A DNA stretch of 64,000 nucleotides from Gilliamella mensalis (GTDB lineage Bacteria > Pseudomonadota > Gammaproteobacteria > Enterobacterales > Orbaceae): contig NZ_FMWR01000014.1 of assembly GCF_900103085.1 (NCBI RefSeq), forward strand, positions 62,001 to 126,000. Direction: 5' to 3'. Shown here piece after piece: positions 1 to 63,638 of the stretch; position 1 is the first letter of the stretch, and each line of letters begins with the position of its first letter. The position numbers and the translations under genes are program-made. The notes under the pieces are model-generated. The model was not told the origin of the DNA, made no database searches, and saw only the letters and a list, made by a program, of their open reading frames with translations.

Positions 1-418
1 CATCAAGCAGATCCACCACACGATCTGACAGCGTAATATCTAGCTCAATCTTAGGGTACTTATCGATAAATTTTTGCCATAAAGGTGCTAAATGTAAAAT
101 TCCAAAACTAACGGGGACATTAATTCGAAGTATACCTTGTGGACTTGCGTGATCTAAAGTGAGGTTATTTTCTGCTTCTATGGTGGCATTAATAATGGCT
201 TTAGCTTGCAAATAAAAAGTTTGCCCTTCAAGAGTGATAACCATTTTGCGAGTGGTTCGTTGTAACAACCGTACTTGCAAGCGATCTTCTAACGCTTGAA
301 GATATCGTGACACCGCTTGCTTAGACATCTTTAACTTAACCGCAGCATCAACAAAGCTATTACAATCAACCACCGTAACAAAAACCATCATTTCTAGTAA
401 TTTATTTGATCTATCCAT
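1..418 (-). CDS. LysR-family transcriptional regulator, N-terminal part (cut by window edge)
   Basis: Reading leftward from an ATG at 418, about 139 codons remain open up to the window edge, so the C-terminal part of the effector domain is missing. The N-terminus MDRSNKLLEMMVFVTVVD leads into a winged helix-turn-helix of LysR type, with SFVDAAVKLKMSKQAVSRYL at about residues 21-40. The start of the periplasmic-binding-protein-like effector domain (GILRVNVPVSFG) follows. It is transcribed away from doxX at 559. In the LysR family that arrangement commonly means control of the neighbour together with autorepression. The effector is unknown. It resembles AaeR-type regulators, but I would not name it. 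Confidence 0.85.
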   Translation of the reverse strand, partial: MDRSNKLLEMMVFVTVVDCNSFVDAAVKLKMSKQAVSRYLQALEDRLQVRLLQRTTRKMVITLEGQTFYLQAKAIINATIEAENNLTLDHASPQGILRINVPVSFGILHLAPLWQKFIDKYPKIELDITLSDRVVDLLD

Positions 419-2342: not shown

Positions 2343-2405
2343 ATGAATTGTTTTTGCGTTTTTATTACTAATGCTATTAGTACACATCATCACCATCATT
2401 CCTGA
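2343..2405 (+). CDS. hisL: his operon leader peptide HisL
   Basis: A 20-codon ORF starts at the ATG at 2343 and ends with TGA at 2403. Codons 15-19 are five consecutive His codons (CAT CAT CAC CAT CAT), followed by Ser and stop. E. coli HisL has seven in a row. An AAAGG ribosome site lies 12 bases upstream. The ORF directly precedes an attenuator and hisG, so a ribosome stalled at the His run for lack of charged tRNA-His would control read-through into the operon. Besides His the peptide also holds two Cys codons. Confidence 0.93.
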   Translation: MNCFCVFITNAISTHHHHHS

Positions 2406-2428
2406 ATAGTCTTCGGGCGATTGGTGCT

Positions 2429-2505
2429 GGGAGACGTTGGTCTTCCGGTGATATAGCAAAAGCAAGCAGAGAACCCTCGGAAGATCAAACTTCCGAGGGT
2501 TTTTT
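2429..2505 (+). promoter_or_regulatory. his attenuator: protector, antiterminator and terminator hairpins
   Basis: Three alternative stems can be drawn. The protector pairs GGGAGAC (2429-2435) with GTCTTCC (2440-2446). The antiterminator pairs TCTTCCG (2441-2447) with CGGAAGA (2478-2484). The terminator pairs CCCTCGGAAG (2474-2483) with CTTCCGAGGG (2490-2499), followed by six T. The shared segments make the three mutually exclusive in the order known for enteric his leaders. A ribosome stalled on the His codons would free the antiterminator. Confidence 0.9.
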
Positions 2506-2546
2506 GTTTGTGGTTTATAAATTTTTAGATAACTTTGGAGAAAGAT

Positions 2547-59521: not shown

Positions 59522-62230
59522 TTAAAACCAGTGACCAAAACGTTTGATATAAATACGTTTCATCAATTGTGCAACACAACAATAGCTAAATAGGGTTGCT
59601 AAAAGCCATGGAAAGTATGACCAAGGTAATGGTTGTAATCCAATTAATCCACCCAGTGGAGAAAACGGAATATAAATACCTACAGCCATAATTAACAATG
59701 TCATCACAATAACAGGAAATGCCGCGGTGCTTTGCACAAATGGAATTTTTTGTGTTCTAAGCATATGCACAACTAAAGTTTGTGACAATAATCCCTCAAT
59801 AAACCACCCTGAATGAAACAGCGATTGCGCTTCAACACTGTTTGCACTAAATACAAACCACATTAATGCATAGGTTGTGATATCAAAAATAGACGATGTT
59901 GGTCCAATCCAAATCATAAAGCGTCTAATATTTAGCGCATCCCATTTGCGCGGTTTTTGTAAAAACTCATCGTCCATTTTGTCCCATGGTAATGAGAGTT
60001 GAGAAATATCATACAGTAAGTTTTGAATAAGTAAATGGATTGCTAGCATAGGCAAAAATGGCAGAAACGCACTAGCTACTAATACTGAGAAAATATTACC
60101 AAAATTCGAACTTGCGGTCATATTTAGATATTTCATAATATTACCAAAAGTTTCGCGGCCGCATATTACACCTTCTTCCAATACCATTAGGCTTTTTTCA
60201 AGCAGAATAATATCGGCAGATTCTTTGGCAATATCCGTTGCAGTATCAACCGAAATTCCTACATCAGCATCGCGCAGCGCCGGCGCATCGTTTATACCGT
60301 CTCCTAAAAAACCAACAGTATGACCGTTATCTTGTAATAATCGGATAATTCGCGATTTTTGCAACGGTGTTAATTTAGCAAAAATAGTGCGTTGTTCGAT
60401 TTGTATTTTCAGTTCAGCATCATCCATTTTTTCAATTTCAGTACCAAGTAATGGAATACCTGGCTCTAAACCGACTTCTCGACACACTTTGATGGTGATA
60501 ATTTCGTTATCACCAGTTAAGACTTTAACGCCGACACCATGTTCATTCAATGCTGAAATTGCCTCGAAAGCGCTTTCTTTTGGTGGATCTAGAAAGGTTA
60601 AAAAGCCACGAATAGCAAGCGCTGATTCGTCTTGTACAGTGTATTGTGTTTTTGTTTCGCTAGCTGGAATGTCTTTTATGCCAACCGCTAATACTCTAAA
60701 ACCATCTTTGTTGTAGTCATGTGCAAGTGCAATTAACGCTTGTTTGCGTTTATCGTCGAGCGGTAAGTATTCTCCATTTTCATAAACATGACTAGCAATA
60801 GATAGCATTTCTTCAACTGCGCCTTTGCAAATCATCAAATGGTTATCACTGCCATTTTGCACAACCACCGATAAACGACGACGTACAAAATCAAACGGTA
60901 ACTCATCAATTTTTTTGTATAAACCAACACCCACCTTTTTCATATTGGTTTTTTCTTCGGTAAAACGGATGATCGCTTTATCCATTAAGTTTTTCATACC
61001 ACTTTGATAATAGCTGTTAAGCCAAGCGAGTTCTAAAACAGAGGAATCAACTTGCCCCTTTATATCAAGGTGATGTTCTAAAATAATTTTATCTTGCGTT
61101 AAGGTGCCTGTTTTATCGGTACATAAAATGTCCATCGCACCAAAATTTTGGATAGCGTTAAGTCGTTTAACTACAACTTTACGTTTTGCCATACCAACAG
61201 CACCTTTGGCTAGGTTAGCACTGACGATCATTGGTAACATTTCAGGCGTTAAACCAACCGCAACGGCTAATGCAAAGAGTGCCGCATCACCCCAATCGTT
61301 TTTTGAAAAGCCATTAATAAAAAAGACAATTGGCACCATGATTAGCATAAAGCGAATAAGCAACCAACTAACACTGTTAACACCACGATCAAATGAAGTT
61401 TCAGCACGTGATCCAACAATTGATTTTGCTAATGAGCCAAAATGCGTATCAGCACCGGTTGCAACCACGATAGCAGTTGCGGTGCCACTAACAACGTTGG
61501 TGCCCATAAAACAGATGTTATTAACATCAAGCACATTATCTTTGTTAAGATCTGATTTTTCGATATTATCGGTCGTTTTTTGCGTTACTGCACCTAAGGT
61601 GTCATACTTTTCAACAGGAATGGATTCGCCAGTAAGTACCGCTTGGCTAACAAATAAATCCCTAGATTCAATTAATCGGATATCCGCAGGGATCATGTCG
61701 CCTGCTGATAAATAAACAATATCCCCCGGAACTATTTCACTTAATGGAATTTCAATGCGCTCTGGGGTCATATCTTTATGTGCACGACGCAACACGGTTG
61801 CTGTTGTGCGAATCATTGATTTTAAGGCTTCAGCCGCTTTGTTTGATCTAAACTCCTGCCAAAAACGCAATAATCCACTAAGCGATACCATGGTTAGGAT
61901 AATAATAATCCCAGTTAAATCAGTTTCTTCACCATTTTGCAAAGGCAACCAAAAATCAGTCACAAAACTGACACTAGCTAATGCTAATAATACAAATATA
62001 AATGGGTTATTAAATGCCATTAATAATTGCACTAGAATTGAGGGTACTTTTTCACGTGCGACTTCGTTTTTACCATATTGTTCAATTCTCGATTTGGCAC
62101 TTTCTTGTGTTAATCCTGAAAGGCTAGATTGGAATTTAGATAAAATACTATCAAGGCTACTTTGTGCCTCACTGATAGCTTTGATATCTGCACTATTTTG
62201 TGCTTTATTTTTTGATGTAGTTTTTGTCAT
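59522..62230 (-). CDS. mgtA: Magnesium-transporting P-type ATPase (MgtA)
   Basis: 902 residues (E. coli MgtA 898), a P3B-type ATPase importing Mg2+ at the expense of ATP. Visible motifs are the actuator loop VLTGESIPVEK, the phosphorylation site DILCTDKTGTLTQDK, KGAVEEML, VKVLTGDNEI and the hinge VGFLGDGINDAPALRDADVGI. About ten membrane helices are present. A basic N-terminal tail (TKTTSKNKAQNS) is typical. It is preceded by a long leader with short ORFs and hairpins, which suggests control by Mg2+ or a related signal, as in enteric mgtA. Confidence 0.96.
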   Translation of the reverse strand: MTKTTSKNKAQNSADIKAISEAQSSLDSILSKFQSSLSGLTQESAKSRIEQYGKNEVAREKVPSILVQLLMAFNNPFIFVLLALASVSFVTDFWLPLQNGEETDLTGIIIILTMVSLSGLLRFWQEFRSNKAAEALKSMIRTTATVLRRAHKDMTPERIEIPLSEIVPGDIVYLSAGDMIPADIRLIESRDLFVSQAVLTGESIPVEKYDTLGAVTQKTTDNIEKSDLNKDNVLDVNNICFMGTNVVSGTATAIVVATGADTHFGSLAKSIVGSRAETSFDRGVNSVSWLLIRFMLIMVPIVFFINGFSKNDWGDAALFALAVAVGLTPEMLPMIVSANLAKGAVGMAKRKVVVKRLNAIQNFGAMDILCTDKTGTLTQDKIILEHHLDIKGQVDSSVLELAWLNSYYQSGMKNLMDKAIIRFTEEKTNMKKVGVGLYKKIDELPFDFVRRRLSVVVQNGSDNHLMICKGAVEEMLSIASHVYENGEYLPLDDKRKQALIALAHDYNKDGFRVLAVGIKDIPASETKTQYTVQDESALAIRGFLTFLDPPKESAFEAISALNEHGVGVKVLTGDNEIITIKVCREVGLEPGIPLLGTEIEKMDDAELKIQIEQRTIFAKLTPLQKSRIIRLLQDNGHTVGFLGDGINDAPALRDADVGISVDTATDIAKESADIILLEKSLMVLEEGVICGRETFGNIMKYLNMTASSNFGNIFSVLVASAFLPFLPMLAIHLLIQNLLYDISQLSLPWDKMDDEFLQKPRKWDALNIRRFMIWIGPTSSIFDITTYALMWFVFSANSVEAQSLFHSGWFIEGLLSQTLVVHMLRTQKIPFVQSTAAFPVIVMTLLIMAVGIYIPFSPLGGLIGLQPLPWSYFPWLLATLFSYCCVAQLMKRIYIKRFGHWF

Positions 62231-62336
62231 CTTGAGTACCTATATTCATAATTTTGGCAAAGGCATGCCAACTCATTGTTACCAAGTAACGATAAGTTAT
62301 TAAATTTTACGATGAGCTAAAATTTTATTGCATAGC

Positions 62337-62368
62337 AAAACTAGCCCGTAAAGCTATTTTGTATAGCT
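62337..62368 (-). promoter_or_regulatory. Mutually exclusive hairpins in the mgtA leader
   Basis: On the minus strand AGCTAT (62368-62363) can pair with ATAGCT (62357-62352). The latter segment is also needed for a second stem, AAAATAGC (62360-62353) with GCTAGTTTT (62345-62337, one bulged G), which ends in four T. The second looks like a weak intrinsic terminator 107 bases before mgtA and the first like its antiterminator. The pairing is seen in the sequence; the regulatory reading is inferred. Confidence 0.4.
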
Positions 62369-62414
62369 AGTGCTGAGCATTAAATTTAATTAGCAAATAG
62401 AATTAATTAAGAAT

Positions 62415-62540
62415 TTAGATACAACTCGGTGGTTCTAAATGTTTTTCTGAAAGATGTAAAACACGCAACATTAAGCTTTGTGCGCATTGATGTTTTGAGT
62501 TTGTGTGATAGCGTGTAAAAAAATGCATATCGTTCACCAT
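62415..62540 (-). CDS. Leader ORF of mgtA, 41 codons
   Basis: ATG 62540 to TAA 62415. The product begins MVNDMHFFTRYHTNSKHQ and ends HLEPPSCI. It is rich in His (six) and has a Pro-Pro pair four codons before the stop. Proline codons in the mgtL leader of enterics sense proline and translation rate before mgtA, so the PP near the end is suggestive. The ribosome site is weak (AACGG). It lies between promoter and the hairpin pair, 184 bases from mgtA. No known family. Confidence 0.4.
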   Translation of the reverse strand: MVNDMHFFTRYHTNSKHQCAQSLMLRVLHLSEKHLEPPSCI

Positions 62541-62597
62541 TACCGTTTTATCAATTTCGGCTTGTGAACTGAAAAAATGGTTATTTAGACAGGTTCA

Positions 62598-62663
62598 TTA
62601 ACCGATAATGATGTGTTTAAAATTGTCTCCCCTCATTTTGGGGTGACCCGATTGAGTGTCCAT
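62598..62663 (-). CDS. Leader ORF of mgtA, 21 codons with strong ribosome site
   Basis: ATG 62663 to TAA 62598, preceded by AGGAG four bases before the start. The product begins MDTQSGHPKMRGD and ends KHIIIG. Its own codons form a hairpin CCCC (62643-62640) / GGGG (62632-62629), followed by GACAATTTT, that a translating ribosome would melt. The stop overlaps the ATG of a five-codon ORF (TAATG). The frame is open up to an ATG at 62732 without a ribosome site. It is probably a regulatory leader peptide. Confidence 0.5.
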   Translation of the reverse strand: MDTQSGHPKMRGDNFKHIIIG

Positions 62664-62771
62664 ATTTCTCCTGTAAATTGAACTCTTCACTTTGTATTTC
62701 AACTTCCCTTCACCCTCATTTTTAACTTCCATAATAGCTAAAAAAGGAAGAAAAGCTCAAAAGGCGGGCAC

Positions 62772-62800
62772 TTTATACGCTTTTCCGAAACAAAAGTCAA
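62772..62800 (-). promoter_or_regulatory. Sigma-70 promoter of mgtA
   Basis: TTGACT (62800-62795) and TATAAA (62777-62772) with exactly 17 bases between. A start at about 62765 gives an mgtA leader of roughly 535 nt. Just upstream GGTTG is repeated with a 9-base period (AGGTTGTATAGGTTGAC). That is not the 11-base period of a PhoP box. Confidence 0.75.
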
Positions 62801-62942
62801 CCTATACAACCTTAAAAGAGTGATAATTGTTGGAAAACAGCACTTATCGTCGTTTTTATCTTCATTTTGATATAGAATTAATACCCCAGATACCCAATAT
62901 AAGATACAATCACAGTACGATTAACTAACGGGAATATTTTAA

Positions 62943-63638
62943 ATGGACCTTTCTGAATTACTCCATGATAATTGGTTCAATTTAGTAATTATTTTTGTGC
63001 TTTCTTTTATCGTATTTATTTATAAAAAACGCACTGAAAATGACAGTTTTGATAACATCATTAAGTATGCCGATATTTTGGGGAAAATACCTCATCCCCA
63101 ATATCAAATAGATTATTTAAATAACATTAAAAGGAAGCTTATTTGGGAAAAGGTCTGCTTTTATAAATCAGGCAATATTGATAAAGAAAATATCGCAATT
63201 TCACTAGTAAATGCCGATATTAACAATATTATTGAACTCTCTCAATTAGATTTATTAACTCAATATTTTGAGATTGTGAAAAATCGTATTACACCACTTA
63301 AACCCTATTTAATTAAAGAAATTTTGCTTAGTGGTGTTGCATGTGCATTCGCTTTTATTATGTTGATATCTAATATGATTACCGTTTTTAGTTCGCCTTG
63401 GGTAATCAATGTCATTATTGCTATTTTGTCAATGTTTATCATGATGATTGCTCTATTTCGCTTTATTTCAAAGCCAATTAAACATTTAAAAACCTATTTT
63501 TTAATTCTAAAAGATTCCGCATTTTTACAAAGAGCAAATAATGAATTAACAAAAATTGTTGGCGATCAAAATAGAGATAAAGAAAAAGAGACAATGAATG
63601 CCTCGCTTCTTAAAAAAATCACCGAATCAGGTAAATAA
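62943..63638 (+). CDS. Uncharacterised three-helix membrane protein
   Basis: 231 residues. One membrane helix at 11-27 and a pair at 127-149 and 153-173 separate a cytoplasmic-looking central domain (30-125, with YADILGKIPHPQYQIDYL and WEKVCFYKSGNID) from a charged C-terminal coiled tail (QNRDKEKETMNASLLKKI). I recognise no family. It is divergent from the mgtA leader, 142 bases from the mgtA promoter. AACGGGAATA precedes the ATG. Its position may reflect a shared promoter region but says little of function. Confidence 0.75.
   Translation: MDLSELLHDNWFNLVIIFVLSFIVFIYKKRTENDSFDNIIKYADILGKIPHPQYQIDYLNNIKRKLIWEKVCFYKSGNIDKENIAISLVNADINNIIELSQLDLLTQYFEIVKNRITPLKPYLIKEILLSGVACAFAFIMLISNMITVFSSPWVINVIIAILSMFIMMIALFRFISKPIKHLKTYFLILKDSAFLQRANNELTKIVGDQNRDKEKETMNASLLKKITESGK

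Follow-up and report, generated by a model that had tools for sequence, protein, structure and literature searches.

The mgtA locus and its leader in Orbaceae

The window, a 64,000-nt stretch of DNA of the bee-gut genus Gilliamella (positions 62001-126000 of the contig, in an assembly of 2.28 Mb), carries on its minus strand mgtA (59522-62230), which codes for a magnesium-translocating P-type ATPase of 902 aa matching the PRK15122 (1660 bits, cut-off 975) and TIGR01524 (1415 bits, cut-off 610.75) models. All leader features described below are on this same strand. Upstream of mgtA is a promoter (62772-62800) with a -35 TTGACT (62795-62800), a 17-nt spacer, and a -10 TATAAA (62772-62777), and a predicted transcription start near 62765 would put about 535 nt of leader ahead of the ATG of mgtA (62230); an earlier note made from these letters had proposed both this promoter and this leader length, and both agree with what we find.

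MgtA is present in 41 of 44 Orbaceae genomes (E 1e-150 or better), and we compared 41 distinct Orbaceae leaders, of which 33 belong to the core genus group and eight are outer ones; L055 was taken from a named record and confirmed to be the leader of one sampled genome. The layout, with a promoter, two upstream open reading frames (uORF1 and uORF2, here ORF1 and ORF2), and two mutually exclusive hairpins, is kept in all 41, and ORF1 and ORF2 are retained in all 33 core leaders, so that the conservation of uORFs and stems among relatives, whose absence would have counted against the earlier note, is what we see across Orbaceae. A pattern search finds TTGA[CT][AT]-15..19-TATAA upstream in 41/41 leaders; within a set interval before ORF1 the promoter is found in 40 (spacer of 17 in 37 and of 18 in three), and in L125 it was read just outside that interval. 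Ribosome sites are predicted from sequence for both uORFs in every leader. Matches to a covariance model of the middle leader segment turn up in 32 of the 394 genomes searched in the order, each of them an Orbaceae genome, and model R1 gave two further weak matches (E 0.003 and 0.004). That the region before mgtA is a conserved, two-uORF regulatory leader is nearly certain.

Several other features of the surroundings are recorded here. The segment directly after the -10 box (62763-62771, minus strand; GTGCCCGCC) is G+C-rich, and a run of at least three G/C follows the -10 box in 32 of 41 leaders; G+C-rich discriminators in this position are a trait of stringently controlled promoters. An inverted repeat rich in A+U (TTTTTAGC..GTTAAAAA; 62719-62745, minus strand) lies close to the 5' end of the leader and is kept in the core relatives displayed. 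A divergent 231-aa open reading frame (62943-63638, plus strand) with no NCBIfam match adjoins the leader, and elsewhere in the window there is a histidine operon leader (2384-2508, plus strand; Rfam RF00514, 86.9 bits).

Coding and RNA constraint in the upstream open reading frames

ORF1 (62598-62663) has 21 codons, begins MDTQSGHP, and follows an AGGAG Shine-Dalgarno site (62668-62672) whose pattern is found in 41/41 leaders; its stop overlaps, at TAATG, the start of the five-codon ORF1b (MNLSK; 62581-62598), an arrangement that had been correctly described before and that recurs in relatives. The position of ORF1 is like that of mgtM. Its start is conserved in all 41 leaders, as are Ser5 and Pro8, with Asp2 in 40, and its length ranges from 21 to 31 codons. 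Among 12 representatives, codons 2-8 have no synonymous change and some amino acid change (pS 0, pN 0.07), which suggests that the RNA is what selection keeps there. Inside ORF1 is a hairpin, P2 (CCCC..GGGG; 62629-62643), with arms that are kept, a loop variable in sequence and length, and no double change counted; the fold of the ORF1 region is of no unusual stability (z 0.06), and in the modelled folds the ORF1 ribosome site could possibly pair with CCUGU. The ORF1 stop overlaps an ATG in 26 leaders and a TTG in two, ORF1 itself reaches the same place in nine, and four have neither. In the nine with a direct read the ORF1 stop lies 10-15 nt before hairpin P3 (described below), and in the 26 ATG and two TTG leaders the ORF1b frame stops either 14-16 nt short of P3 or within it.

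ORF2 (62415-62528), in an mgtP-like position, has 37 codons ending ...KHLEPPSCI-stop. It is preceded by a Shine-Dalgarno-like GGTGA (62534-62538), with GGTGAACG preceding the ATG in 41/41 leaders, and a small hairpin, P4 (GATATGC..GCTATC; 62507-62531), which covers its start codon, is present as a sequence pattern in 37 of 41. The frame is open from the ATG at 62528 to a stop just after Glu-Pro-Pro in all 41, with 37 codons in 33 leaders and 28 to 40 in the others. The earlier note had started this ORF four codons upstream, at 62540, for a length of 41 codons with a Pro-Pro pair near its end; the Pro-Pro pair stands, and the start does not, the codon at 62540 being ATG in 12, ACG in 26, and AAG in three leaders. 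Glu-Pro-Pro (62427-62435), the expected pause site, is present in 41/41, always with two consecutive prolines and not three, and it lies three residues from the stop in 40 leaders and four in one.

Since the alternative +2 frame of ORF2 is stop-free in 16 of 32 leaders, openness alone says little, and the coding evidence for ORF2 is its substitution pattern. Among 12 representatives pN/pS is 0.35 over codons 1-34, with 0.17 in codons 24-34 and 0.48 in codons 2-23 (L051 was excluded from the codon counts for an in-frame codon loss), which argues for conservation of the peptide, above all of its end. Synonymous-only change had been proposed beforehand as a check on both ORFs; in ORF2 synonymous changes predominate, and in codons 2-8 of ORF1 there are none. 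Across genera, invariance is limited to M1, E32, P33, and P34 (25 rows); among the 33 core leaders synonymous codons are interchanged at Glu and at both Pro positions, whereas the Ser-Cys-Ile-stop codons (35-37 and the stop) have zero variation. Judged from these substitutions, ORF2 is under protein-level constraint up to Pro-Pro and under RNA-level constraint after it.

The same numbers bear on two other explanations of the locus. ORF2 could code for a functional small protein to which the leader is incidental, as the pN/pS of 0.35 would allow; its conservation is mainly C-terminal (0.17 versus 0.48), and the inter-genus invariants are the start and Glu-Pro-Pro, both as expected of a pausing peptide, and we give this explanation the least credence of those weighed here. 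Hardly more credible is direct sensing of Mg2+ by a riboswitch, without peptides: a long, structured, conserved leader ahead of a Mg2+ transporter is what such a switch would look like, but protein-level selection on ORF2 speaks against it, and so does the region's want of any Rfam family at gathering thresholds or at E up to 10, bar three weak unrelated matches (E 2.6-6.3). The Rfam Mg2+ riboswitch covariance models themselves had no match in the leader region.

Alternative hairpins and two predicted ribosome-dependent switches

Between the uORFs lie two hairpins that share a segment. P3 (region 2 : region 3; 62532-62569) has the sequence GUUCAC..GUGAAC with an inner CCG..CGG, contains the GGUGA of ORF2, and is predicted by fold calculation to hide this ribosome site. 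Region 2, the 5' side of P3, has an alternative partner in region 1, at the end of ORF1 (62582-62605, minus strand), with which it forms hairpin X (62557-62605), the putative antisequestor. A pair of hairpins with a common segment had been foreseen, one member terminator-like, just before mgtA; the conserved alternative pair lies further upstream, at 62532-62605, between the uORFs. Downstream of the hairpin that does lie before mgtA (62254-62271), the mgtA strand reads AAAATTAT, which has no U run. We rejected a terminator at this place, the terminator-like match of the scan being on the opposite strand.

The 12 pairs of X are paired in 92.0% of cells of the alignment, compared with at most 58.9% when one side is slid along the other. 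Three pairs have changes on both sides, a number reached in 3 of 500 shuffles, and there are four such cells (1/500); the count of further pair types is unremarkable (108/500). The outer six pairs of P3 are invariant in 25/25 rows, and because of this no covariation is countable for it. The P3 fold has a modest z of -1.95, with 9 of 200 shuffles equally stable; other segments scored -1.42 and -1.46. When the same alignment was folded by automatic consensus, X was not chosen; the P3 outer helix and the pairing of the ORF1 site with CCUGU were picked instead, with both-side changes in 0 of 22 pairs.

We then modelled ribosomes at different places on the leader. Without a ribosome, X has a probability above 0.5 in 30 of 41 leaders and P3 in nine; with one at codon 8 of ORF1 the counts are 37 for X and four for P3. 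A ribosome at the -31 stop of ORF1 reverses this, with P3 above 0.5 in 39 leaders and X in none, and at the -14 stop P3 is above 0.5 in 34 and fails in seven. This switch behavior appears in 12 of 13 real leaders, L120 being the failure, versus 12 of 780 with region 1 shuffled. The median cost of opening the ORF2 site is 3.5 kcal/mol with the ribosome at codon 8 versus 5.9 kcal/mol at the stop, and the stop state is costlier by at least 1 kcal in 36 of 41 leaders. The GGUGA of ORF2 is nonetheless paired at about 0.78-0.80 (median) in all states but one, the X state included (partly due, in the codon-8 state, to P4 over the start codon), and the predicted ON state is therefore perhaps only relatively open. 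The choice between X and P3 by ribosome position is a prediction from energy calculations only.

The overlap of ORF1 and ORF1b could also be understood as positive coupling, in which ribosomes leaving ORF1 would restart at TAATG and their passage toward P3 would open the ORF2 site. The stop-start overlap (ATG in 26 and TTG in two of 41 leaders), or the direct read to the same place (9/41), accords with this, and several leaders have an ORF1b that runs into the P3 loop; a ribosome modelled there leaves neither hairpin formed and would have, in leaders with a long ORF1b, an opening rather than a closing effect on ORF2. For the -31 and -14 stops the calculation gave the opposite, with P3 favored, and in none of the 41 leaders does a ribosome at the stop make the ORF2 site easier to open by over 0.5 kcal. 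We rejected the opening of P3 by ribosomes leaving ORF1 for the usual stop positions, and positive coupling as a general account seems improbable to us.

The second predicted switch joins the end of ORF2 to the ribosome site of mgtA. An anti-Shine-Dalgarno segment, GTATCTA (62416-62422), at the ORF2 end is complementary to the Shine-Dalgarno segment of mgtA, TAGGTAC (62236-62242). The seven GUAUCUA:UAGGUAC pairs are standard in 96.5% of cases across the 41 leaders, whereas other registers give 12.2-73.2%, and one of the pairs is G-C in 35, G-U in three, and A-U in two leaders. When ORF2 ends and mgtA sites were swapped among leaders, 4 of 2000 arrangements were as good as the native pairs in the set of 19 representatives, and 29 of 2000 in that of nine divergent leaders. 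A scan of the whole leader places the best complement of the mgtA site at the ORF2 stop in only 19 of 41. There are 11 Gilliamella leaders in which region 1 (CCUGUCUA) is a stronger complement of this site than the ORF2 end (L018, L019, L059, L021, L048, L050, L035, L034, L117, L060, and L055), at -12.2 to -12.5 kcal/mol; region 1 with the mgtA ribosome site is possibly a third pairing.

A ribosome with Pro34 in the P site would cover the anti-Shine-Dalgarno segment. Forcing the stretch under such an EPP ribosome to be unpaired lowers the median cost of opening the mgtA site from 4.6 to 2.1 kcal/mol, and the site becomes easier to open in 35 of 41 leaders, versus 17 and 13 with control blocks. 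The anatomy of the two predicted switches is well supported, with comparison and calculation behind it.

The hairpins might instead act on transcription and not through ribosome sites, by Rho-dependent attenuation as in the mgtL leader: the ribosomes on the uORFs would determine whether RNA polymerase is halted by Rho within the ~190 nt, free of ribosomes, from ORF2 to mgtA. Such attenuation is established for MgtL (PMC11282234) and suspected for mgtCBR (PMC3641672), and the long stretch from the ORF2 stop to mgtA (147-319 nt) would suit it. It leaves unexplained why the ORF2 end is complementary to mgtA's own ribosome site and why P3 covers the ORF2 site in 41/41 leaders. We regard it as a rather unlikely, if serious, alternative; Rho attenuation and translational switches can coexist.

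Proposed mechanism and comparison with known Mg2+ leaders

We lean, with modest confidence, toward two translational switches in series as the control of mgtA by its two-uORF leader. Ribosomes completing ORF1 (or ORF1 and ORF1b) would cover region 1, region 2 would pair with region 3 as P3, and the ORF2 ribosome site would be hidden (OFF). An early abort or pause in ORF1, or no start at all, would allow X to form and P3 would be absent; ORF2 would then be translated, a ribosome slowed at Glu-Pro-Pro would cover the ORF2-end segment, and the Shine-Dalgarno site of mgtA would be free for translation (ON). The low-Mg2+ signal would be the abandonment of ORF1 by ribosomes, as for MgtL and MgtQ, and poor decoding of proline would be an input acting at ORF2. 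Conservation, coding selection on ORF2, complementarity, and the covariation of X are apparent in the aligned leaders themselves; the polarity in the cell, the signals, and translation (not termination) as the controlled level are what we infer.

The earlier note had suspected a leader logic different from that of mgtL, and this idea stands, but the logic has a precedent in the Salmonella mgtCBR leader with its uORFs mgtM and mgtP (PMC3641672 and PMC6908480). In both, two uORFs follow in the same order and prolines are concentrated toward the end of the second; alternative hairpins between and after the uORFs, in Orbaceae a prediction, are a further likeness. PMC3641672 reports that early mgtM stops derepress mgtC, with mgtM stopped before seven codons being derepressed, and that an mgtP start mutant has low expression; the polarity proposed for Orbaceae thus has a precedent. 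An early stop in the first uORF turning expression ON, with translation of the second needed, is the shared behavior, in Orbaceae as a prediction, and the predicted polarity fits the tandem mgtM/mgtP leader rather than mgtL. The starts of the two uORFs are 130-153 nt apart in Orbaceae; in two enterobacterial leaders of the tandem type, both before mgtB-like genes, the distances are 141 and 145 nt. The mgtM start codon is given as UUG (PMC3641672, PMC6908480, PMC8092293, and PMC11282234 as a group), and mgtM is reported to have an adenine stretch responding to ATP (PMC3641672).

There are also differences. The Orbaceae leader lies directly before an MgtB-like mgtA, ORF2 has 28-40 codons compared with 17 in mgtP, and the P3 and X sequences occur only in Orbaceae within the sample searched. 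In Orbaceae the prediction is of two serial, translational switches; for the two Salmonella attenuators PMC3641672 and PMC6908480 report independent, additive action on transcription. A PhoP/PhoQ-driven promoter before mgtC, a trait of mgtCBR, has no counterpart in the Orbaceae genomes searched: the PhoQ sensor domain had no match in 44 genomes, E. coli being positive among the controls, and the MgtC model matched in one of 44. With no PhoQ sensor domain found in these 44 genomes, this leader may be one of the main controls by Mg2+. The Orbaceae leader is a likely descendant of an mgtM/mgtP leader and, as modelled, is predicted to work like one.

For this family, in which no PhoQ sensor was found, we would go further only tentatively, and propose that the two serial switches form a translational AND gate, in which aborting uORF1 would license uORF2 and the Pro-Pro pause on uORF2, at a fixed distance from the anti-Shine-Dalgarno segment at the uORF2 end, would license mgtA; Mg2+ and proline decoding would then be read in sequence by ribosomes alone. 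If this is right, an mgtM/mgtP-like Mg2+ leader with two uORFs operates in a family without a detectable PhoQ sensor, two attenuators are serially wired through ribosome-site masking, and the fixed distance from Pro-Pro to the stop has a rationale; the leader would also be a compact natural test of how the stopping place of a ribosome sets gene output.

The mgtL leader resembles that of Orbaceae in that the gene of a Mg2+ P-type ATPase is preceded by a uORF having an acidic residue and a proline early on. MgtL is one uORF with EPDP, which ribosomes leave at low Mg2+, and it acts by Rho-dependent termination (PMC11282234); Orbaceae leaders, in contrast, have two uORFs and hairpins predicted to hide ribosome sites, and the single early acidic residue of ORF1 is a weaker motif than EPDP. 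Given this weak likeness of ORF1, the earlier statement that neither peptide resembles that of mgtL is only partly right. The translational level has its parallel in mgtQ, in the Salmonella mgtC-mgtB gap, where abortion of the uORF rearranges hairpins and opens the mgtB ribosome site, and a proline codon matters via base pairing (PMC8092293); mgtQ frees mgtB directly, whereas ORF1 would free a second uORF.

Outside Orbaceae we compared 11 of 14 mgtA/mgtB places, from 10 genomes of other families. A uORF with an early acidic residue and proline precedes all 11 of these genes (ten listed by script, and L163 read from the sequence), and in two such leaders, L158 and L160, a further uORF, with Pro-Pro-Pro toward its end, starts downstream of the first (by 145 and 141 nt, respectively). 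The resemblance of MDTQSGHP to (M)LDSHP, with similar spacing in L158/L189 and L160/L190, was seen by eye. In ermC-type translational attenuators, a ribosome paused on the leader peptide opens the ribosome site of the next gene; the predicted Orbaceae scheme differs in having no drug, a pause that would be at Pro-Pro, and an extra upstream switch.

Literature searches, in a collection that excludes most subscription papers, returned nothing linking Gilliamella with mgtA or Orbaceae with an upstream open reading frame, and the two papers on Gilliamella and leader peptides concern, by their titles, other subjects. A pattern search for mgtM-like starts matched in 74 of 197 genomes with a similar reversed control, and was discarded as evidence. 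We note that at L188 there is a second mgtM-like start, LDSHPGGLRQVNQ, after GAGGAG, and that the same genome has one before an mgtB-like gene.
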